DNA of 35,744 bases, from contig KQ960831.1 of the NCBI GenBank assembly GCA_001553355.1, positions 1 through 35,744 of the forward strand. Reading direction: 5' to 3'. The notes under the pieces were generated by a model. It did no database searches, was not told the DNA's origin, and worked only from the letters and a program-made list of their open reading frames with translations. Positions 2,120-28,470 of the stretch are shown one piece after another (the stretch's first letter is position 1; each line of letters begins with the position of its first letter). Position numbers and translations under genes: made by a program. The DNA is from Veillonellaceae bacterium DNF00626. Its GTDB lineage: Bacteria; Bacillota; Negativicutes; Veillonellales; Dialisteraceae.

Positions 2120-2191
2120 CTCAAAAGATTGTTTTTGGTCGTATTTTATGATGATAGAACATGTATTTTGTATATGAGGAGGCAATTTATT

Positions 2192-5100
2192 ATGCGTAAA
2201 AATCAATTAAAAGCATGTATTATGAGTGGATTAGCTTGTGGAGTCATGATGGGTGTTATGGGACTAACGACAACTCCGGCACAAGCAGCAACGTATGAAG
2301 ATGAATTAATGGCTGATGTTAGCGATGGAGATTTAGAAAGTAGTAGTGCGGCATATACATATGGGCATGTGATGAGTTATGATAACAAAAATCAAGCAGT
2401 TATATATGATTTCCGTGGGGAAGATGTGACAGAAATCTCCGGACATGCAGTTTCTTCTATTAGTGTCATGCCGGGGTGCAACGCAAATGTACGGGCTAAT
2501 ATGTTAAAGCTGAAATCGGATATTGACGATTTTAGCCTTGCCGGCGGCGGTGTTATGATTAACGATAAAGGCCGATTAGATTTGAATGCGAAGGATATTT
2601 TAGTATCTTCTAACATGGAGAAGCAGTATCCTAATCACGGAATTGCGATGGCACATACCGGAATGGATGAAGGCGGAAAAGGAATTTTGAATGTGAATGG
2701 AGAAGTTATCATTAAGAAGAATATTGATGGTGATGTAGGTGTATTGAAACAGAGCTTTTCAAATAGTCCGGATTATGGTATTACCAGAGAAAAAAATTAC
2801 TGGGGGTATGATGATAGTTATAAAGGCGGGCGTTGGCTTCCAACCGGTGTATTTGGCGGACTGAGTGCCGGTAGTGTAATGAATTTCAATGTTCCGGTGT
2901 ATGTGGCAGTGAAAGGAACAGCGATACAGTCAGATCCCTATTATAAATGGCAGGGAATTGCTGATTATGATCTGATGACTGTTAATATAAATAAGGGTGG
3001 TTATATTCTGACACCCATAGATAAAAATATGGTAAGTTATTCAACGGCTAATTTTGGTGGTACTATCAATATCAATGTCCCAGAGGTAAATGGGAAGCGG
3101 GTTTTAGGGGATTCTCCTGTGTATATGGTGGGGAACGCCATTGTTATGAAAGATGATGGGCGAGGAGGTAAGTATTTCTTCCGTAATGGTAGAACGAATA
3201 TTGCTCTTACTACGCCTGATTCCTATTGGCGTGGCGCAATCGATAATACCGGTGCAGCACAGGTGGGTGAATTGAATCTTTATATACAAAATGGAGCCAA
3301 ATGGATTTGTGAACAAGTCGGGGCATTGAATGGCATGAGAGGCGATGAAATGCCTGAGGTGGAGAGTAAAGGACATTATGGAAATTATGATGGCATCCAT
3401 CATGTTAATTTTCTCATCGGGGGCGATACAGAAGCATCGGCAGGTATTTTACAACAAGAAGATGCAAGACCTATTACCGTGTCTTATTATGCTGGTCATA
3501 TGAAAGTACTATATTCAGATCCCAATGGAGATAATACATTTGCTAATCGAGGTTCTTTGACGATAGATCAAGCACAAAAGGGATCTGAAATTGTGATTAT
3601 GCCTATGGGGTATGTAAATGGAACTACTGTTGAAAGAATTCTTGGGGGTAAGGTTATTTACAAGGGAGGCAATAATCATTTATCGAAGAAAGTTTATGTG
3701 GGAGAAGGAATGCTACGCTCTGCTCAGATATATAGTAATGTTTTTATGGTAGAGAATAGAGAAACAATAAACACAGATGAAAATGCATTTTTTAATTCTT
3801 ACGTAAAAGCAGTAAAAGGAAATAATCAGTATGTAAAAGGATATATATCCGGTGATTCAGAAAAAGATAGTGCATGGATTAAAGAAAAAGTCTCTAAGGG
3901 AAATGGGAACTATGAATTTATCGAAGATACATCCCTTATAGCAGAAGATGAGAAAAATTTTGCAGTGGAGGTAGTAAAGGATATCCATATCAGCGCGAAA
4001 GATAAAAAACTATATGTAGCGGTAGAAAAATCCAAGAATAAATTGATCCGAGGATTATCCAACTATGTTCCTGGAGGCAAATTAACGATTGATGCAAAAG
4101 AAATTCATATATTGTCAGCAAATACTACATCTGGAAGAACAGAAAGCATTGGTATGAATTCTTCGAAGAAAGAGAAAAAAACAGAAGTCATATTGAATGG
4201 GAATGTATATGTTAATTCGATTAATGAAAGTGGTTACCTTTTAGGTGTTTATGCCAGTGGCAATTCTCATTTAGTCATTAACGGCGATTTTACGATGATA
4301 GGACCGGACGAAAAGCATCCCTGGGGATTGACTTATAAAAGGGAGCGTAAGGTAAATCCGGCGGTACAAGGTGGTATAGAGTATGGTGCCAACGGTTTAT
4401 ATGCCGGTAGTGATTATGGTATTCAACAAGGTCCTTATATTGAAGTAAACAGAAATGTGCATATAAAAGGGAAAGGGGAAGGCGTTTTTGCTAATGGCGG
4501 CGGATCTCGTATTGATATTATCGGCGGTGGATATATAGAAGTAGAACATAGCACCCATCCTTATTTTGCTTTATTAGCACAAAGTGGAATTGTTCACATC
4601 AATACTAACAAAGAAGGTACCGTTCCAAATAATAATAAATTGGTCATTAAGGGAGACATAGGAGTTATGCCTGGGTCTGTACATTCTAATGAACCTTTTA
4701 AAATATCAGAAGTGGTATTGGCACTTACTACATCGGATTCGTCTTTAACCGGTAAAATATTTAATGGCTTTAAGCCGATGCATATTAATAAAGGATTTAC
4801 CGGTAAAAATGTATTGTTTTTACAAAATGGTGCCACTTGGTATGATACTAGATATAATAAGACGGCTGCAGTAAGAGACGGAAATTGTTATATTACGACA
4901 TTATATGGTGGTAAAGATGAAAGTTCTGCAGGTATTATAGTTAAAAGCGCTGAGGTAGAAAGTGTGGGAGATATAAAAATAGATGAATTACAAGGATATG
5001 TAAAAATTATTTTTCCACACTTACGTATGGGGACATATATTACTGATTATCCCGGTAAGGTTGATATAGAAAAAGCTACAAAAGGTTCTTTTGTTACTAT

Positions 5101-6493
5101 CATAACTGATGCTAAAGAAATAGATGTGAATGATACAAATCAAATAAAAATGGTGTTAGAGAAATTAGTGGGTCATGTGCATTATAATGCAAAAGAAAAT
5201 AGAGATAATTTAAAGGGTAAAGCAGTAATTGGTGAAGGTCTCTTATCATCTCGTTATTTTATAGAGGCACCGATTAGTTATCCGAAAGGTAGGGGTGGTG
5301 GTATCGGTCTTGTAGACTTTAAAGAAATGAAGAAAATAAAACAAGATCCAAATCCGGAAAAAGATACAGATAAGTTGAAGACGGCATTTGATTTATGGAA
5401 AGAAAATCAAATAAAGAAAGCCGGGGATGATGCAGACAAAAAAGGCAAGGCTGAGAAGCTAACGATTGATGATTTTATTAATGAATTAAAAGGAAATTCA
5501 GAATCGGAAGAGAAACCGGAAACAGATATTATTATCACGGATGGTGATTTTGAAACAGGTGTCATGAAAGGGATTAGAAGTAGTATATTCTCTGCTATAT
5601 CCATGTATCGGGCACATAGTAATGATATGTTGAAGAGATTGGGTGATGTACGTTTGTTTAAGGCCGATACGGGTATTTGGGCTAAATATCAAGGCGGACA
5701 TACTGATATAGATACAAAAGATAAAAATAATGTACATGTCCAATTGGGACAAAAGTATAATATGCTTCAAGTTGGATTTGATAAAAGAATAAATCCGGCA
5801 ACTTTAGTAGGTGCTGCTTTTGATTATGGAACTACCAAAGATACTTATGAGTTTGGCGCCGGTAAAGGCCACATTGGTGGATTGGCAGTATATGGCATGG
5901 TAACAAAAGATAATGGCCTTTATGTAGACGTTATCGGTAAGTTTGGAAAGATGAAGGCGGATTACGATGTAGAGACTAAAGAGCATGCCATTTATAAAGT
6001 GATCGGAGAAAAAGCTTCCGGAAGTTATGAAGCGATGGCAACATCCCTTAGCGTGGAAGTCGGCAAGCGAATAGAGCGTACGCAAGGCTTCTATATGGAA
6101 CCAAAAGCAGAACTGACCTTGGGATACATCGGTGAACATAGTCATGATGTTGTGTCGGAAAAAGGAAATCGGATGAATGTAAAGCAAAAACCACTACTGA
6201 GTGTTGTTGGTAAGTTGGGGCTTTTGTTGGGAAGAAAAATGGAAAAAGGAAGTATGTTTGCCGGAGCTATGGTTGCTCATGAATTTGGAGGGAATTTGGA
6301 TACGGTCTTCAGTGTAGGGAAGAAAAGTAAAACAGTATCCATGGATTTAAAGGATACGTGGTTTGAGTTGGAAGCCGGCGGAACATGGAAGACAAGTGAA
6401 AATAGTTATATATATGGAACGCTTAGTAAGAATTTTGGTGCCTTCGTAAATGAAAAATGGAGAATTGATGCCGGCATTCGATTGGCGTTCTAA
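2192..6493 (+). CDS. Giant autotransporter (type V secretion), 1433 aa
   Basis: The start at 2192 follows AGGAGG with good spacing. An in-frame extension to a TTG at 2129 lacks such a site and would spoil the signal peptide. Residues 1-32 form a Sec signal ending TPAQA before ATYED. The passenger (about 33-1060) has the Gly/Asn-rich, short-strand repeats of a beta-helix and appears internally duplicated: LYIQNGAKW/LFLQNGATW, ALTTPDS/ALTTSDS, and GGDTEASAGI/GGKDESSAGI recur in the same order. A Lys/Glu-rich linker (about 1050-1118) leads to the barrel domain (about 1120-1433), which ends in RLAF. Likely surface-exposed; no protease or esterase motif was seen, so adhesion or display is the best guess. 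The leader carries a B12 riboswitch. Confidence 0.9.
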   Translation: MRKNQLKACIMSGLACGVMMGVMGLTTTPAQAATYEDELMADVSDGDLESSSAAYTYGHVMSYDNKNQAVIYDFRGEDVTEISGHAVSSISVMPGCNANVRANMLKLKSDIDDFSLAGGGVMINDKGRLDLNAKDILVSSNMEKQYPNHGIAMAHTGMDEGGKGILNVNGEVIIKKNIDGDVGVLKQSFSNSPDYGITREKNYWGYDDSYKGGRWLPTGVFGGLSAGSVMNFNVPVYVAVKGTAIQSDPYYKWQGIADYDLMTVNINKGGYILTPIDKNMVSYSTANFGGTININVPEVNGKRVLGDSPVYMVGNAIVMKDDGRGGKYFFRNGRTNIALTTPDSYWRGAIDNTGAAQVGELNLYIQNGAKWICEQVGALNGMRGDEMPEVESKGHYGNYDGIHHVNFLIGGDTEASAGILQQEDARPITVSYYAGHMKVLYSDPNGDNTFANRGSLTIDQAQKGSEIVIMPMGYVNGTTVERILGGKVIYKGGNNHLSKKVYVGEGMLRSAQIYSNVFMVENRETINTDENAFFNSYVKAVKGNNQYVKGYISGDSEKDSAWIKEKVSKGNGNYEFIEDTSLIAEDEKNFAVEVVKDIHISAKDKKLYVAVEKSKNKLIRGLSNYVPGGKLTIDAKEIHILSANTTSGRTESIGMNSSKKEKKTEVILNGNVYVNSINESGYLLGVYASGNSHLVINGDFTMIGPDEKHPWGLTYKRERKVNPAVQGGIEYGANGLYAGSDYGIQQGPYIEVNRNVHIKGKGEGVFANGGGSRIDIIGGGYIEVEHSTHPYFALLAQSGIVHINTNKEGTVPNNNKLVIKGDIGVMPGSVHSNEPFKISEVVLALTTSDSSLTGKIFNGFKPMHINKGFTGKNVLFLQNGATWYDTRYNKTAAVRDGNCYITTLYGGKDESSAGIIVKSAEVESVGDIKIDELQGYVKIIFPHLRMGTYITDYPGKVDIEKATKGSFVTIITDAKEIDVNDTNQIKMVLEKLVGHVHYNAKENRDNLKGKAVIGEGLLSSRYFIEAPISYPKGRGGGIGLVDFKEMKKIKQDPNPEKDTDKLKTAFDLWKENQIKKAGDDADKKGKAEKLTIDDFINELKGNSESEEKPETDIIITDGDFETGVMKGIRSSIFSAISMYRAHSNDMLKRLGDVRLFKADTGIWAKYQGGHTDIDTKDKNNVHVQLGQKYNMLQVGFDKRINPATLVGAAFDYGTTKDTYEFGAGKGHIGGLAVYGMVTKDNGLYVDVIGKFGKMKADYDVETKEHAIYKVIGEKASGSYEAMATSLSVEVGKRIERTQGFYMEPKAELTLGYIGEHSHDVVSEKGNRMNVKQKPLLSVVGKLGLLLGRKMEKGSMFAGAMVAHEFGGNLDTVFSVGKKSKTVSMDLKDTWFELEAGGTWKTSENSYIYGTLSKNFGAFVNEKWRIDAGIRLAF

Positions 6494-19433: not shown

Positions 19434-20498
19434 TTACAATGTACCATGATCAATTTTTACCAATAATTCATCCAAAGGCGTAGTTTTTACATCGTACACC
19501 GGCACAAGAGCCGTCACGGCATTATCACCCGTATTGATAATAATCTGCGGATCGGAACCTTCAGGTAACTCCCTTCCATGGAAAATGCGAGCGGCCAAAG
19601 AAGTTAGCTCCGACTCATTTTTATCAAAAGAAATATCATAGCCCGATAAAAATAAATGACGGATAATGGTCATTATTGCGGTATTATTTCCTTTGACCAG
19701 AACCATTTTCTTTCGACGATCCGGTTTCTTATATGAAAACAAAGAAAGTTTTCCGGTGAGCGGATCATGATAGACGAGTGCATTCATTGAAAAAACTGTT
19801 TCTAAATTTTTCTCTGTCAGCACATTTTCTGCTTTACCATCTGCGACAAAATGACCATCATGAAGCATCACGAGGCGACTGCAATAATCCGCTGCCATGA
19901 GAAGATCATGACAAACGATAAAAATAGTTTTTCCTTCATGGCATAACGTCTGACAAAGTCGAAATATTTCCTCCTGATAAGGCAAATCAAGAGAAGCTGT
20001 AGGCTCATCCAAGAAAAGAATGGGCGTTTCCTGCGTAAGCACCTTAGCCAAAATGACACGTTGCTTTTCACCGCCGGACAGCGTTTGAATAGGCTTATCC
20101 TTTAAATGAAGCACACCTGTATACGCCATGTATTGATGAGCTAATTCCTTATCCTTAGATTGTTCCCGCTCCCACCAAGACAAATAGGGGTACCGCGCAG
20201 ACAAAACGATTTCCTCGGCGGTGTATGCAAAAGTTGTTTGAAATTCTTGCTGCATAAAGGCGATTTGCTTTGCTTGTTCCTTATCGGATAAGTCATCTGT
20301 ATTTTGGCCATGTAAGAATACAGTACCCGAGGTTTTAGGAATAAGACCGCAAAGCGTTTTAAGAAAAGTACTTTTACCGGCACCATTAGGCCCGATAATT
20401 CCGATAAACTCACCTTTTTCCGCCGAAATACGGCAATCAGTCAATATATTTTTTTCACCTAAAGTGACGGAAAGGTTTGACGCTTGTAAAAGAGACAT
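19434..20498 (-). CDS. ABC transporter ATPase (FecE/BtuD/HmuV type) with C-terminal extension
   Basis: This subunit powers uptake of an iron-siderophore, haem or cobalamin-like ligand through the adjacent FecCD permease. Residues 1-255 are a standard ATPase: Walker A GPNGAGKST (36-44), Q-loop near QQEF (83-86), signature LSGGEKQR (140-147), Walker B ILFLDEP (160-166) and switch His198. Residues about 261-354 form an extra domain starting RRKKMVLVKGNN, predicted to be a small alpha/beta fold; extensions at this place occur in some Firmicute cobalamin/iron-complex ATPases, but a match is not claimed. The start codon shares one base with the permease stop (TAATG), so the two are coupled. Confidence 0.88.
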   Translation of the reverse strand: MSLLQASNLSVTLGEKNILTDCRISAEKGEFIGIIGPNGAGKSTFLKTLCGLIPKTSGTVFLHGQNTDDLSDKEQAKQIAFMQQEFQTTFAYTAEEIVLSARYPYLSWWEREQSKDKELAHQYMAYTGVLHLKDKPIQTLSGGEKQRVILAKVLTQETPILFLDEPTASLDLPYQEEIFRLCQTLCHEGKTIFIVCHDLLMAADYCSRLVMLHDGHFVADGKAENVLTEKNLETVFSMNALVYHDPLTGKLSLFSYKKPDRRKKMVLVKGNNTAIMTIIRHLFLSGYDISFDKNESELTSLAARIFHGRELPEGSDPQIIINTGDNAVTALVPVYDVKTTPLDELLVKIDHGTL

Positions 20499-21538
20499 TA
20501 CATAGCACCCCCTTCTTTACGCATACGACGAATCAAATAAAGGAAATAAGGTGCGCCCAAGAGCGCTGTAATGATGCCTACCCGTATCTCCAACGGCGGT
20601 AAAAGTGCGCGTCCGATCGTATCACAAAGAAGCAAGAAAAACGCACCGAACAAAGCAGATGAAGGAATTAAAAGCCGATGATCCGGTCCAATGAGAATAC
20701 GCATCATATGAGGAACCACAAGACCCACAAATCCGATCATACCGCTGGTACATACCGCCACAGCAGTGATAAATGACGAAATGAAAAGAAATAATGACCG
20801 GTACCATAAAATATTCATGCCCAAAGACTTTGCCTCCGTTTCACCTAACGAAAGCACATTTAAATGACGAGCAAGGACAATCAATGTCACAAGCCCTGCG
20901 ATAATCGGGGCAAAAGACAAAGCAACATGATCCCACCGGCGATAATCAAGTCCTCCGACCGTCCAAAAAAGGAACTCCTTCAAACGATATTCATTCATAA
21001 AAGTTAAAAGCCCATTTGTCATAGCGCCTAAAAAAATACTCACCGCCACTCCTGCCAAAAGAAGACTCATAGGAGGAATTTTTCCATGACGAAACGTCAA
21101 AAGCACCGTGATGATCACCGCAAAAATCGCACCGCCCAAAGCGAATGCCGGCATATAATAAAGAGACACGGAAGTGAGACCTAAAGAAATACAAATTACA
21201 GCACCAAAAGACGCACCGGACGATACACCGATGATACCCGGATCAGCCAAGGGATTAGAAAATACCCCTTGCATTACGGCTCCGGCAGCGGCCAAAGCAG
21301 CACCACACAGTAATGCTACAACGATACGAGGCATACGAATATACCAAAATACCGAAAATTGATCCGCCGTAGGCATCTGACCAAAAGAAGGCAAATCAAG
21401 CCCTCGACATACTTCATGAAGCACCACGCCAAAAGGCACAGAAATCGCTCCGGCATGAAGAGAAATAAGAACGAGGAACAATAAAGCGGCACATAAAGAA
21501 AAGAAAAATAGCCCTTTTCCCTTGACGGTTTGAATCAT
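20498..21538 (-). CDS. FecCD/BtuC-family ABC permease
   Basis: This is the inner-membrane permease for an iron-complex, haem or corrinoid ABC importer. The 346 residues are mostly membrane helices (about nine to ten) with the family patterns RMPRIVVALLCGAALAAAGAVMQG (read in parts), NPLADPGIIGVSSGA and GFVGLVVPHMMRILIGPDHR. I chose the ATG at 21538, which follows GGAGGAGG; a longer frame from a TTG at 21589 overlaps the -35 box and is unlikely. The permease and ATPase are divergent from the receptor, binding protein and CobN-type gene, and together they make one full uptake system. The substrate cannot be read from the sequence. Confidence 0.9.
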   Translation of the reverse strand: MIQTVKGKGLFFFSLCAALLFLVLISLHAGAISVPFGVVLHEVCRGLDLPSFGQMPTADQFSVFWYIRMPRIVVALLCGAALAAAGAVMQGVFSNPLADPGIIGVSSGASFGAVICISLGLTSVSLYYMPAFALGGAIFAVIITVLLTFRHGKIPPMSLLLAGVAVSIFLGAMTNGLLTFMNEYRLKEFLFWTVGGLDYRRWDHVALSFAPIIAGLVTLIVLARHLNVLSLGETEAKSLGMNILWYRSLFLFISSFITAVAVCTSGMIGFVGLVVPHMMRILIGPDHRLLIPSSALFGAFFLLLCDTIGRALLPPLEIRVGIITALLGAPYFLYLIRRMRKEGGAM

Positions 21539-21559
21539 AAAAACCTCCTCCAATATTTT

Positions 21560-21589
21560 TTTATAGTATACTGTTTTTTTGTAACTCAA
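21560..21589 (-). promoter_or_regulatory. Promoter of the permease operon
   Basis: On the minus strand TTGAGT (21589-21584) and TATAAA (21565-21560) are 18 bases apart, just upstream of the ribosome binding site. A second candidate, TGGTATACT with TATACT at 21646-21641, lies further up. Confidence 0.45.
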
Positions 21590-21733: not shown

Positions 21734-21782
21734 TGATATATTCATTTTCATTTGTTGTTTTATCAAGAAAGGGGTCTTTTCT

Positions 21783-23682
21783 ATGAAAAAGACAGTATTA
21801 GCTTCTTTTTGCGCCGCTCTTTTGGTCAATGGGGGGGGCGATGGCAGCATCGACCTATCAGCTTGATCCGGTGGTAGTTACCGCCAATCGAGTAGAACAG
21901 AAAGCTTTTGATGCTCCTGCCAATATATCGGTAGTGACAGCGAAAGAAATTCAAGACCGTCATTATAGCGATTTAGGGGATGTGTTAAAGAATATTCCCG
22001 GTGTGAATGTGCAGAATTATGGTGTGAGTGGGGAAAATTATTCTGCCAATCGAATTTATATTAACGGTAGTAAAGGAATTGTGTTTATGGTTGACGGTAT
22101 GCGCGTCAATGTCAATGGTATGTCATCAGGTATCTTAGCAGGGTCTGAATTTCCGGATATGAAAGGCGTAGAACGTATTGAAGTCTTGAAGGGGGCATCA
22201 TCTACATTGTATGGTAGTGATGCCGCCGGCGGTGTTGTAAATATCATTACCAAAAAAGGCGGTTCGGGTATTCATTCTTCTTTGGGATTGAAAACGGGCA
22301 GTTATGGTAATAGAAATATTGTTTTCAATACCCGTGGAGCAGTGGGAGATTTTTTCTATCGTGCATCAGCGTTAAGAAATAAAATGGAAAACTATACCGA
22401 TGCGGTAGGGGAAGAAATTTTGCAGAGGGTGAATGCGAATAATTATAGCGTAACCATTGGGCATCAAATTGATAAAGAGAGTTTTGTTTCTTTGACCTAT
22501 GATAAATACCTGTCAAATTATACTCGTCCGGATGCCGGAAAAATAGTTGGAGATCCTTCAATGACACCGGTTAATGGGGAAAAGGATAATTCGCGGATTG
22601 CGCTTAACTGGACACAGAAATTAGATGATAGATTTAGTAATCAATTCTTTGTTTATCAAAATGAAAATAAGTTAAAGGATGGTACGAATCAACCGGCGGA
22701 TGAAAATTGGATATTTGACTTGAGCACGACCGGTGTGACAGAACAAATTACTTATAAAGATGATAAAAATACCGGCATATTTGGAGTGGATTATTATAAG
22801 GATAAAGTAAATGATTATTGTTCTCATGGAGATAAATATGGTCCGCTAAGCTTAAGTAATAAATCTGTATTTTTGCAGGATGCGTATGAATTTGCACCAA
22901 ATTGGACTATTACACCCGGAGTTAGATATACAGATAATAGTCGTGCCGGATCGAAAGTGACAAAAAATGTAACAGTTAATTATAACGATGGTGATATGAA
23001 TGTCTATGGCGCTTATAAGGAATATTTCATTGTACCTACACAAAATCAATGGTTTGGTAAATATGGAAATCCTGACTTGAAACCCATGACCGGGAAAGGG
23101 ATAGAATTAGGCATGAATTATCGTGTAAAGGATGATTTGTTGTTGACTCTTAATTTACATCATATGAAATCGGAGAATGCTTTTGGATATGATGCAAATT
23201 GGAAAATACGTAATGTGGCAAAAGAAGAATCAAATGGGTATAGCATAGGCATGGAAAAAGTAGTAAGTGATAATCTTTCCGTAAAAGGCGATTATACTTA
23301 TACATATATGCCGGCAGAGAATAGCTCAAAGAATATCAATGGTGATGGATACATTCCTCAACATCAAGTAAATATAGATGTAGATTATACGAAAGGAAAA
23401 TTCCAAGGCATTTTAACAGCTCGGGGAATGTTTAATCGACCGGGTAGAAAAGTAAATGAAAATAAGGTGCCGGATAGCATGAAATCTTTCTGGGTAGTAG
23501 ATGCGACAATGAATTATCAAGCAACAGAAAATATGTCTGCTTATTTTAAAATCAATAATATTTTTGATAAACTCTATACACATGCACTTTATATTGCCAT
23601 TCCAAATGTGAAAGAAAATACGAAAAATTGGTATCCGGCTCCGGGGCGGAATTTCCAGTTTGGTATGGAATTTAAGTTCTAA
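21783..23682 (+). CDS. TonB-dependent outer-membrane receptor, frame broken at a poly-G run (phase-OFF or error)
   Basis: The ATG at 21783 follows AGAAAGGGG and begins a signal peptide (MKKTVLASFCAALLVN), but as written translation stops at 21864 after 27 codons. From 21829 the rest is open in the +1 frame. Removing one G from the run 21831-21838 joins them into a 632-residue protein with a perfect signal ending GGAMAA. After it come a TonB box (DPVVVTA), the plug (ANISVVTAKEI, IPGVNV, ERIEVLKGASSTLYGSDAAGGVVNIITK) and a 22-strand barrel with GNPDLKP and NNIFDKLYTHALY, ending in FKF. The YFIVP...GNPDLKP segment resembles both haem receptors and BtuB; no receptor His between these motifs is seen, so the ligand stays open. 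Confidence 0.88.
21831..21838 (+). repeat. Poly-G run of eight in the receptor signal peptide
   Basis: Eight consecutive G after AAT, inside the codons for the signal peptide, in AT-rich DNA. Seven G puts the receptor in frame; eight gives a 27-codon product. Such runs change length by slipped-strand copying. Confidence 0.9.
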
Positions 23683-23697
23683 TGAAATAGAAAAGCA

Positions 23698-23725
23698 AAA
23701 GAGACGATTTCGGTCGTCTTTTTTG
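23698..23725 (+). terminator. Terminator of the receptor gene
   Basis: AGACGA (23702-23707) pairs with TCGTCT (23714-23719) around TTTCGG, followed by a T-run. The receptor is thus transcribed apart from the binding-protein operon. Confidence 0.8.
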
Positions 23726-23743
23726 TTTTCTTGTTTTGTCGTA

Positions 23744-23812: not shown

Positions 23813-24748
23813 ATGGGGAAAATAATGCGATTTCTTTTGGCGATTATATTGACATTTGCCATTGGATTTTCTGCCGGGTGCGGAATTCCTGATGGGGGGA
23901 CTTCTAAGACGGAAACTCGGGTGGTCACTGATGGCATGGGGACGGAGACGGCGCTTCCTCTTCATCCGACGCGGGTGGTGTCTATCGGTGTGTCTACCGA
24001 TGATGTGGTGCTTTCGCTTATTGGCGGTGAACGGGTCATCGGCATCGGGCATCTTGAGGAAAATATGACAGATGAAGCGGCGAAGGTGCCGAATCATATC
24101 ACGAGTGCGACGGAATCAGTGATTTCTCTTGCACCTGATTTGGTGATTGTGCCGGATTGGATGAGAGCGGAGTTTGCTGATGAACTTCGATCAGCCGGTT
24201 TGTCCGTGTATGTTTATCGCACGCCGGGAACGATTGAGGAGATGCTTCAGATGATAGAGGAAATAGCCTGTGTGGTGAACGAAGAAGAGAAGGGACAGAG
24301 GCTTATTGGCGAAGTTAAAGGACGCATTGAACGAATAGATGATTTTATGAAACAAATTCCGAAAGAAAAAAGATTGAAAGCGGTGTATTGTTATCCTCAA
24401 GCGGTCGGCGGCGGCAAGGGGAGTACTTTTGATGGCCTTTGCGCACATGCCGGACTTGTTAATGGGGCGGCGGAATATGGAATAGGAAGTACGGAGTCGG
24501 CCGGTAGAGAGGCATTGATTGCTATTAATCCGGATATTATTTTTATGGCAGATGATGCTTATTCTAAAGAACCAAAGAATTTGCCGGCGATGCGACAGCT
24601 TTATGATGATCCGGCGTTGGCACATGTGAATGCTATTAAGAATAAGAAAATATATATTATTGATGCGAAAAAATTGTTGAGTTACTCTCAATTTATGATA
24701 GACGCGATGGAAGAAATGGCGCAAGATGCTTATGGATATGAAAAATAG
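23813..24748 (+). CDS. Periplasmic-binding lipoprotein (BtuF/FepB/HmuT type)
   Basis: This 311-residue protein should catch the ligand in the periplasm and hand it to the FecCD permease. A hydrophobic signal ends in FSAGC, a lipobox whose Cys (residue 22) would be lipid-modified. The rest fits the class III metal-complex binding fold: LHPTRVVSIGVSTDDVVLSLIGGERVIGIG (read in parts, near 52-82), SLAPDLVIVPDW, a long linking helix near 150-185, and INPDIIFMADDAYS near 244-257. The start ATG follows GAGGAGA. Its gene is 11 bases before the CobN-type gene, strongly suggesting one operon. Its partners are the divergent permease/ATPase genes, not adjacent ones. Confidence 0.88.
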   Translation: MGKIMRFLLAIILTFAIGFSAGCGIPDGGTSKTETRVVTDGMGTETALPLHPTRVVSIGVSTDDVVLSLIGGERVIGIGHLEENMTDEAAKVPNHITSATESVISLAPDLVIVPDWMRAEFADELRSAGLSVYVYRTPGTIEEMLQMIEEIACVVNEEEKGQRLIGEVKGRIERIDDFMKQIPKEKRLKAVYCYPQAVGGGKGSTFDGLCAHAGLVNGAAEYGIGSTESAGREALIAINPDIIFMADDAYSKEPKNLPAMRQLYDDPALAHVNAIKNKKIYIIDAKKLLSYSQFMIDAMEEMAQDAYGYEK

Positions 24749-24759
24749 AAGGATATGAA

Positions 24760-27700
24760 ATGAAAGAAATTTTTTGCTTTACGAATTTAGAGCCTGTCAG
24801 GGTGAAGATGAAAAAAGCCGTAGAAAGTTTATCTGAATCTGTGCCGGTGGAGATTATTCAATTGAAGGATAATACGGAATGGACCAAAGCAGATGAGAAA
24901 AAGGTGGCTACGGCCGGTTTTGTTTTGGTGCTTTGGATGGGTACCGGGTTGTCGGATACTTTTCTGGCAGGGCTTCATGCTTTTTTGGTGAAAAGAAATA
25001 TTCCTTTCTATTTTGATGAATCGGATTTGGACGAAGGAGAAGAGTCCGGGGCCGTGACATCGGATGTGATTGAAAGGATTCGTGCTTACCAATCCGGCGG
25101 CGGTGTGGTCAATCATCGGAATTTATTTCTTTGGTTACTTCATACTTTTTGTGATGAGAAATATAGGTATGAAGAGCCGAGAGAATATCCTTTTTGGGGT
25201 ATTTATGATCCGGATGAACCGGACGCTTTTTGGGATACGAGAGAGTATATAGCCCGCTTTCATGATTCGAAAAAGCCTACTGTGGGGCTGATATTTTATA
25301 GAAATGACTGGCAAGAGGGTATTTTGCAGTGGCAAGCGCCGCTTATTCGTATTTTGAAAGAGGAAGGTTGTCATGTGCTCGCGGTATTTGCCACAGTGAT
25401 TGATGAAAATCATAATGGCACGCCTTCTTTAGGGGAAAATATGAAACAGGCTTTTTATGTCGACGGAAAGCCGGTTATTGACGTGCTTATTAATCCCATC
25501 ACTTTTGGCCTTATATCCACTGATTTACTCATGTTGCATGACTTAAAGCAATTGAATGTAGCCGTTTTACAAGTATATAATATGTATTCTTCTTATGATT
25601 GGTGGAAAGATCACACGGTCGGATTGACAGCGAATGAAGTGGCTTATGCGGTAGCTTTGCCGGAATTTGACGGTGTTATTCATTCCGTTCCTATTTCTAC
25701 GCAAGAAATGGCATCTGATGGTACGCATGTGCAAAAACCGATGATCGAGCGGATGCATTCTTTAGCACGGCGTGCCAAAAAATGGGCGATGCTTCGGAAG
25801 AAAAGAAATAAAGATAAAAAAGTGGCGATTATATTTCATAATTGTCCACCGGATAATTCACATATCGGCGGTGCATGTCAATTAGATTCCATCGAAAGCA
25901 TGAGACGTCTTTTGTGGTTGTTAAAAGACCGGGGTTATGAGGTGGAAAATTTACCGCAGGATACGAAAGAATTTATGCAGGAATTGACCACTCACGCCAC
26001 CAACGACCGGCGGTTTATGTCAGAAGCCTTGCTCAATCATGCTGACGGTGTATTCTTACGGGACGATTATAAGGCCTATTTTCACCGGTTACCTGAAGCC
26101 ACGCAAGAACATGTGGAAAAGGATTGGGGAAAAGCACCGGGAGAATTGTTTATTCATGAAGGAAATATGATTGTGCCGGGGACGCTGAAAGGACATATTT
26201 TCGTCACTGTTCAGCCGGCGCGAGGGTTTGGCGATCATCCCGATGCTATTTATCATGATCCGAATTTATCACCGACTCATCAATATTTAGGTGCATATGA
26301 ATGGATACGAAATGTGTGGAATGCCGACGCTATTATTCACGTGGGAACACATGGTACGGTGGAATGGCTGCCGGGGAAGGGGGTAGCACTTTCAAATGAA
26401 TGTTATCCCGATATTTGCGTAGATGATATTCCGGATATTTATCCCTACTGGGTGACATGCATCGGAGAAGGCATCGAAGCGAAACGGCGTGGCGCAGCGT
26501 GTATTATTGACCACTTGCCGGCGCCTATGAGCTTAGCCGGTACATACGATGAATATGCGAAATTAGAAAAAACATTGGAAGAATACGCTCATTATCAAAA
26601 AGATGAGGAGAATCCGGACTATGCGCAGCAAACAGAAAATCTCATTCGTGAAGAAGTGGCGGAATGTCATTTGGATAAGGAAATAAAAGAAGAAGAGTTC
26701 CGGAATTTTAATGAATATGCTCATGCATTGCATCATTTCATAGCGGATTTGAAAAATATGCAAATTCAAGTGGGATTGCACATTTTAGGAGAAGTGCCGA
26801 GCGGAGAGAAAATGACCGAGTTTATTTTCGCTTTGACGAAAATGGAAAATGGCGATATTCCGGGCTTGGCGAAAACGCTGGCTTTGGCAAAGGGATATGA
26901 TTATTACAAACTCATGGAAGAGGGAGGACGTATTGACGAAAAAACCGGTCTGACTTACTTGGCGCTTTTAGATCAAGTGACCGAAGAGGCGAAAAAATTT
27001 ATTCTCACACTCCAAAAAGGCGGATTTACCGAAAAAAGTATTGCGGACACGCATCATATTTCCTTTATCAAAAGTATGACCGCAGAGCAGAAGGAAATAG
27101 TAGACACTATCGCACATTACATTAATGAAACCATCGTGCCGTCGCTTGAGAAAACGACCGATGAACAAGAAAATATTTTGCGTGCCTTGGAAGGGGAATA
27201 TATCGAGCCGGGCCCTGCCGGATCACCTACGGCCGGCGGTGCGGATATTTTGCCGACCGGGCGGAATTTTTATAGTGTCGATCCGCGGACGCTCCCGACA
27301 AGACCGGCATGGGAGATCGGAAAACAAATGACAGACGGCGTTATCGAACAATTTATTGCGGACGAAGGGCGCTATCCTGAAAGCGTAGGAATTATCCTTT
27401 GGGCAACGAGCAATATGAGAAATCACGGCACATGCATGAGCGAATTTCTTTATTTGATGGGGCTGAAGCCTCAGTGGGAAGAAGGTAATCAACGAGTTAT
27501 AGGCGTGGAAGTCATTCCTCTATCGGAATTAAAACGACCACGTATCGATGTGACCGGACGTATCAGCGGACTTTTCCGTGACACACTGCCGGCATCAGTA
27601 CGATGGCTTGACGATGCAGCCAACCGAGTGGCAGCCTTAGACGAACCCATAGAAATGAATTTCGTGCGGAAACACGTATTAGAAGATGCAGAAGAATTAG

Positions 27701-28470
27701 AAAAAGAAGGCTTAAGCAAAGAAGAAGCATGGAAAAAAGCAAGCTATCGCATTTTTGGAGATCCGCCGGGGTGCTACGGTGCCGGGGTAGATGCTGCTTT
27801 AGAAGCCAAGAATTGGCAAAATATTGATGACTTAGGGGCTGTTTATATGAGATGGGGCGGTTACGCTTACGATTGTGCCGATGGGGGTAACTATTTGCCC
27901 AAACAATTCAAAAAAAGACTGTCCCAAGTGGAAATTACCATTCAAAATGTAGATCAAAGAGAATCATCCATGCTTTCCAGTGATGATTACAACGCCTATC
28001 GTGGCGGTTTAGTGGCGGCGGTACGAAGTTGCAGCGGAAAAATGCCAAAAAATTATGTCAGCGACAGTTCAGACAAGAAAAAAATCATCACGCGCACTTT
28101 AGAAGACGAACTGAAACGGCGTTTTAGGGGCGAAGCGATGAATCCGAAATATATCGAAGGAATGAAGAAGCACGGCTATAAAGGCGCGGTAGACTTAGCC
28201 GAATATTTAGTCACCAGTTTTGCATGGGACGCCACCTCAGACATTATGGAAGATTGGATGTATGACGAATACACGGATAAATATGTGCTTGATAAAAACA
28301 TGCAAGAATGGTTCAAAGAAGTGAATCCATGGGCATTATCACGTATGGTTGATACATTGTTGGAAGCCGTACAAAGAAATATGTGGCATGCGGACGAAAA
28401 AAGAGTGGAGGCATTGAAAAATCTTCTCTTAGACGTAGAAGGCGAAATGGAAGAAAGTAGTGACAGTTAA
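24760..28470 (+). CDS. CobN/BchH-family tetrapyrrole metal chelatase subunit (HmuS-like context)
   Basis: The 1236 residues have the full CobN domain: HVGTHGTVEWLPGKG with His527, GLHILGE near 669, a GGADILPTGRNFYS block near 826-840, PRIDVTGRISGLFRD near 927-941, RIFGDPPGCYGAGVD near 1000 and NPKYIEGMKKHGYKG near 1128. CobN inserts cobalt into a corrin ring together with CobS/CobT; BchH/ChlH handles magnesium. No CobS, CobT, ChlD or ChlI partner gene is present. In Bacteroidetes a CobN-like protein, HmuS, sits in haem uptake loci and is tied to anaerobic release of iron from haem. This gene lies in the same operon as a ligand-binding lipoprotein, beside a TonB receptor and an ABC importer, so a role in handling an imported tetrapyrrole is my inference. 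No membrane segment or signal was seen, so it is cytoplasmic. Confidence 0.85.
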   Translation: MKEIFCFTNLEPVRVKMKKAVESLSESVPVEIIQLKDNTEWTKADEKKVATAGFVLVLWMGTGLSDTFLAGLHAFLVKRNIPFYFDESDLDEGEESGAVTSDVIERIRAYQSGGGVVNHRNLFLWLLHTFCDEKYRYEEPREYPFWGIYDPDEPDAFWDTREYIARFHDSKKPTVGLIFYRNDWQEGILQWQAPLIRILKEEGCHVLAVFATVIDENHNGTPSLGENMKQAFYVDGKPVIDVLINPITFGLISTDLLMLHDLKQLNVAVLQVYNMYSSYDWWKDHTVGLTANEVAYAVALPEFDGVIHSVPISTQEMASDGTHVQKPMIERMHSLARRAKKWAMLRKKRNKDKKVAIIFHNCPPDNSHIGGACQLDSIESMRRLLWLLKDRGYEVENLPQDTKEFMQELTTHATNDRRFMSEALLNHADGVFLRDDYKAYFHRLPEATQEHVEKDWGKAPGELFIHEGNMIVPGTLKGHIFVTVQPARGFGDHPDAIYHDPNLSPTHQYLGAYEWIRNVWNADAIIHVGTHGTVEWLPGKGVALSNECYPDICVDDIPDIYPYWVTCIGEGIEAKRRGAACIIDHLPAPMSLAGTYDEYAKLEKTLEEYAHYQKDEENPDYAQQTENLIREEVAECHLDKEIKEEEFRNFNEYAHALHHFIADLKNMQIQVGLHILGEVPSGEKMTEFIFALTKMENGDIPGLAKTLALAKGYDYYKLMEEGGRIDEKTGLTYLALLDQVTEEAKKFILTLQKGGFTEKSIADTHHISFIKSMTAEQKEIVDTIAHYINETIVPSLEKTTDEQENILRALEGEYIEPGPAGSPTAGGADILPTGRNFYSVDPRTLPTRPAWEIGKQMTDGVIEQFIADEGRYPESVGIILWATSNMRNHGTCMSEFLYLMGLKPQWEEGNQRVIGVEVIPLSELKRPRIDVTGRISGLFRDTLPASVRWLDDAANRVAALDEPIEMNFVRKHVLEDAEELEKEGLSKEEAWKKASYRIFGDPPGCYGAGVDAALEAKNWQNIDDLGAVYMRWGGYAYDCADGGNYLPKQFKKRLSQVEITIQNVDQRESSMLSSDDYNAYRGGLVAAVRSCSGKMPKNYVSDSSDKKKIITRTLEDELKRRFRGEAMNPKYIEGMKKHGYKGAVDLAEYLVTSFAWDATSDIMEDWMYDEYTDKYVLDKNMQEWFKEVNPWALSRMVDTLLEAVQRNMWHADEKRVEALKNLLLDVEGEMEESSDS

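Follow-up and report, generated by a model that had tools for sequence, protein, structure and literature searches.

A poly-G tract, probably a translational on/off switch, in the signal peptide of a TonB-dependent receptor gene of a Veillonellales genome

A TonB-dependent receptor gene belonging to a likely corrinoid uptake cluster is interrupted, inside its signal peptide, by a run of eight G that is very probably a translational poly-G phase-variation (contingency) tract captured in the OFF state. The gene lies in the window, by which we mean the whole 35,744-nt stretch of DNA that was analysed. Because nearly all long G runs of this genome front surface-protein genes, this one most likely belongs to a set of random on/off switches. 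Tract-length variation, reversible switching and the identity of the substrate are what we infer, from a comparison that included one genome per species. The elements of the receptor gene are the following.

21768..21774, + strand: Shine-Dalgarno-like AAAGGGG, 8 nt 5' of the ATG (read directly)
21783..21830, + strand: start codon and first 16 signal-peptide codons, MKKTVLASFCAALLVN (sequence and frame read-out)
21831..21838, + strand: G8 tract, the proposed slippage switch (sequence; one of the genome's eight runs of at least eight G)
21864..21866, + strand: TGA closing the start-codon frame at a tract length of eight G (sequence and frame read-out)
21829..23682, + strand: TonB-dependent receptor body, Plug (PF07715) plus beta-barrel (PF00593), 617 codons from the in-frame ATG at 21829

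At the assembled length of eight G, the start-codon frame reads GGGDGSIDLSA after the run and then meets the TGA, and translation ends after 27 codons. From 21802 the receptor frame continues uninterrupted to its stop at 23682, with a C-terminal phenylalanine as its last residue and no further stop or frame break across 1.85 kb. A change of one unit in tract length moves the receptor gene into or out of frame, and lengths of 1 modulo 3 (e.g. 7 or 10) unite the signal-peptide and receptor-body frames. The preliminary description had reported the ATG at 21783 with its ribosome site, 16 codons, eight G and a stop at 21864, all of which the sequence and the frame read-out confirm; it had also stated that seven G would join both frames, in agreement with the modulo-3 read-out, and that a 616-residue body is open in the other frame, where the body is indeed intact and the count comes to 617 codons.

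To judge whether the gene is read correctly, we consider its orthologues, the closest of which are about 38% identical. Their signal peptides (MKKKYIAASLAALCAAGGAMTVHA, MNRKIMAASLAVLSLSGGAFCVEA and MKQGVLAALVGAALLAGGSAQAA) carry a Gly-Gly (or Gly-Ser) near the position of the tract, and the two halves of the signal peptide here, MKKTVLASFCAALLVNGG and AMAASTYQLDPVVVTANR, fit the same layout. This shared layout is evidence that translation truly starts at 21783 and that nothing but the tract breaks the gene. In principle the break need not silence the receptor: RNA polymerase or the ribosome could slip on the G run, or translation could begin at the internal ATG at 21829, which is in frame with the receptor body. 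We regard this as highly improbable: no ribosome site of the tested pattern precedes that ATG, its product would miss most of the signal peptide, and slippage on the run would be partial.

The preliminary description named a sequencing or assembly slip as the main alternative, under which the run really has a different length and nothing is wrong with the gene. The genome is a draft of 64 contigs, and indel errors occur most often in homopolymers. The break at the G8 is nevertheless the only one noticed in the window, whose 25 other genes are all open while carrying 63 homopolymers of at least six bases. An error in one run would also leave the clustering of long G runs at surface genes unexplained; a random slip can account neither for the seven runs out of eight found at such genes nor for the design seen in relatives (both described below), and we consider a slip improbable. 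Even if the assembled length is wrong, the tract likely remains a switch.

Is a long G run simply a matter of chance? In dinucleotide shuffles of the window the mean was 0.68 G8 matches, with at least one in 40 of 100 shuffles, and we therefore reject the idea that the run is improbable as such: the window's single G8 is unremarkable under this null. The earlier statement that G8 is rare in AT-rich DNA is accordingly not significant for the window alone, but it holds to the extent that such runs are scarce in the real genome. Exact run lengths, derived from genome-wide matches to windows of 6, 7 and 8 G, are distributed over the 1.59 Mb as 56 G6, one G7, five G8, two G9 and one G11, giving eight runs of at least eight G. 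This spectrum has two humps, since a single decaying distribution would not drop from 56 to 1 and then climb to 8. The lone G7 lies in the ribosome site before a CBS-domain-like gene. Seven of the eight long runs are at surface-protein genes, five of these in non-coding upstream DNA. Besides the tract in the receptor gene, the long runs are:

C4, G11: 256 bp upstream of an ESPR gene
C24, G9: 177 bp upstream of an ESPR gene
C52:40286, G8: 68 bp upstream of an ESPR gene
C52:48635, G8: 57 bp upstream of an ESPR gene
C39, G9: in promoter position, about 57 bp 5' of an autotransporter gene (PF03797) whose product starts with MKKML
C45, G8: frame break in the gene of a signal-peptide protein; the body of this protein is similar to the autotransporter at window 2129-6493
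C16, G8: phage-like region, unrelated; the lone misfit among the eight

The genome has seven ESPR (extended signal peptide) trimeric-autotransporter genes, four of them with an upstream run of at least eight G, and placing at least four of eight runs upstream of such genes has P of about 1e-11 under uniform placement. None of the G6 or G7 runs in the genome list falls in an ESPR upstream region (Fisher P 1e-4 against the long runs). At C52:48635 the run lies within an 18-base spacer from TTGACA to TATTAT, and at C39 within a 19-base spacer from TTGTTA to TATAAT, arrangements that have the geometry of promoter-spacer switches; around the upstream tracts of C4, C24 and C52:40286 there are no clear promoter boxes. 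The 5' ends of the genome's seven other TonB receptors contain no poly-G tract.

Several features of the autotransporters can be recorded in their own right. The ESPR autotransporter at C52:40361 (L079 1562-2071), which has a G8 upstream, is interrupted after 169 codons by an in-frame TAG, past which the same frame stays open. A trimeric autotransporter on C52 (L080 1691-6445) has, past the YadA anchor, a C-terminal S-layer homology domain. In the window, a cobalamin riboswitch (Rfam, 41.2 bits) at 1711-1900 lies about 290 bp ahead of the start of ORF 2129-6493 (likely start 2192), which encodes a large autotransporter and is not the kind of gene usually expected under B12 control.

This genome-wide placement bears on a second alternative, that the gene suffered a one-off frameshift at a mutational hot spot and that the receptor was recently lost, its state fixed as the first step of a pseudogene. 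Such a loss may be tolerated, since the genome has seven other TonB receptors, one of them (L098) distantly related; the tract is absent from the orthologues read; and surface genes do break here, as the ordinary in-frame stop at C52:40361 demonstrates. Against it, the rest of the 1.85 kb body is unbroken, and the five long runs in upstream DNA are at sites where a pseudogene reading cannot apply. We judge a one-off frameshift unlikely, though it is the strongest of the rivals considered here.

If the tract is instead a phase-variation switch, slipped-strand mispairing at replication would now and then gain or lose a G. At lengths of 1 modulo 3 signal peptide and receptor would form one protein, which would reach the outer membrane, while at other lengths, eight included, no exported receptor would be made. 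The receptor would then be one of seven poly-G-tagged surface genes, the others being mostly autotransporter adhesins with the tract upstream. Switching may be slow, because G8 falls below the poly-G cut-off of at least nine used for Neisseria phasomes (PMC5953494); tracts of G8 do occur in hmbR among isolates (PMC3786947). Loss of mismatch repair as a driver is rejected, as MutS is present in the genome.

We now consider what the receptor may transport. Its Pfam scores (PF07715, 87.3 bits; PF00593, 125.4 bits) both exceed the cut-offs and identify it as a TonB-dependent receptor. NCBIfam scores are similar across siderophore, haem and B12 receptors and every cut-off is missed: assignment as a haem/haemoglobin (HmbR-like) receptor fails at TIGR01785 (164.4 vs 316.85) and TIGR01786 (115 vs 323.75), and assignment as the BtuB vitamin B12 receptor at TIGR01779 (163.5 vs 599.7). 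Among solved structures, the colicin I receptor and BtuB come closest. The gene is surrounded by the following features.

19434..20498, - strand: BtuD/HmuV-type ATPase
20498..21589, - strand: FecCD/BtuC-type permease, divergent from the receptor
23692..23729, + strand: terminator-like hairpin behind the receptor gene
23813..24748, + strand: periplasmic binding protein, BtuF-like (PF01497)
24760..28470, + strand: CobN/BchH-type chelatase large subunit (PF02514)

Orthologues in other families adjoin the same BtuF plus CobN or BtuCD, and one of these loci also carries a YggS gene, as found downstream here. When six of the genome's eight receptors were compared, 17 of 17 relatives matched this receptor over the others. 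Three same-genus homologues sit behind a cobalamin riboswitch; upstream of the window's own receptor gene no riboswitch or other RNA was found, and the best Fur-box 19-mer there matches at 13 of 19 positions, a score equalled by 25 sites in the window and not significant. Haem clusters of the HmuR/S/T/U/V type comprise the same gene classes as this neighbourhood, and for that reason haem stays a candidate. Taken with the riboswitches of the relatives, the neighbourhood favours a corrinoid or other tetrapyrrole over haem, and the receptor probably serves a tetrapyrrole uptake cluster whose substrate is most likely a corrinoid, with haem as a further candidate. It resembles BtuB and other TonB-dependent tetrapyrrole receptors in its plug and barrel and in having BtuF-, BtuC- and BtuD-like genes and CobN alongside; it differs in missing the BtuB equivalog cut-off and in having no upstream riboswitch.

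In Proteobacteria and Campylobacterota, poly-G phase variation is textbook knowledge. The closest known cases, hpuA and hmbR of Neisseria, are outer-membrane uptake genes that likewise contain poly-G within the coding sequence and whose frame depends on tract length modulo 3, and hpuA is in frame at 4, 7 and 10 (PMC3786947), the same modulo class as the window's receptor. They differ in belonging to another phylum, whereas here the run is short (8) and inside the signal peptide, and in their substrate families, since this receptor falls below the haem/haemoglobin cut-offs and is no member of those families. Length variation is documented among Neisseria isolates; here the tract is known from the assembly of one genome. 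The comparison with HmbR and HpuA drawn in the preliminary description is therefore apt for the mechanism and not for haem, given the missed curated cut-offs and the pointers to a corrinoid or other tetrapyrrole. In porA and fetA of Neisseria, poly-G/C tracts in promoter spacers act as switches. The sister tracts of C52:48635 and C39 are alike in position, each separating a -35-like from a -10-like box at a surface gene; those of porA and fetA switch transcription, unlike the window's tract, which is proposed to switch translation.

Runs of at least nine G were also read in relatives, namely five genomes of the same genus and a group of further Veillonellales. Many of them, above all in GC-richer genomes, lie in repeats or intergenic DNA with no clear target. 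Others are at recognisable genes. In G001 an autotransporter homologous to that of C39 (27% identity) has a G11 in the corresponding promoter region, a G9 lies upstream of an ESPR-like start, and a type III methyltransferase (PF12564; L062, C1:687093) is broken at a G9, a possible same-genus phasevarion. A glycosyltransferase (PF00535) of G004 is broken at a G10; both enzymes belong to gene classes known for phase variation. A G11 in G019 occupies the promoter geometry TTGACA-N18-TATATT, within the N18. Three genes carry a run inside the signal peptide, out of frame in G008 (G9, MKRRQLARLAV) and G011 (G9, MKHKKILAAWAAFTLLH) and in frame in G019 (G10, MKRTELRKKVLYALAVASVATFVH). They are not receptor orthologues, gave no Pfam hit in the part that was read, and display the poly-G-in-signal-peptide architecture in both phases. 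Together with the placement of seven of the eight long runs, this design lends the on/off switch of the preliminary description strong, indirect support. Among receptor orthologues whose 5' ends were read none has poly-G in its signal peptide, exact 5'-flank searches and searches for same-locus copies in viral contigs gave no match, and the named genomes contain no near relatives of the receptor and CobN.

Two further patterns were seen in relatives. In G019, L122 and L129 (C1:996492 and C1:1861606) have near-identical G10-bearing upstream regions with different autotransporter-like genes behind them, a likeness that suggests a duplicated, putatively switchable upstream region. Small zinc-ribbon-like proteins (MKRKAKCLVCGAMFTADRITQKYC...) lie 150-220 bp behind a poly-G run at L124, L125, L131 and L132 of G019 and at L101 of G008; each G019 copy has TAC..GTAC around the run and, between run and gene, a conserved hairpin with a T run (GGCAGCAT..ATGCTGTCTTTTTTGCG).

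The mechanism is already known, and what is new, within the open-access literature searched, is its probable occurrence in Veillonellales: we found no relevant report of poly-G phase variation in Negativicutes, Dialister or Veillonella in that literature, outside which most subscription journals lie. As a tentative broader proposal, about which we are rather evenly divided with some leaning to doubt, the Veillonellales diderm Firmicutes may have an unreported poly-G phasome made up of autotransporter promoter spacers, outer-membrane-protein signal peptides, and type III methyltransferase and glycosyltransferase genes, and in this lineage random poly-G switching may have replaced, for a corrinoid-type receptor, the cobalamin riboswitch that controls its relatives. 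Switching makes sense for a receptor with which cells compete for a scarce cofactor and through which phage or bacteriocins can enter. Genes with such tracts would be mistaken for broken ones wherever annotation relies on a single genome. The set of tracts at surface genes of a Negativicute indicates that diderm Firmicutes probably use this bet-hedging too.
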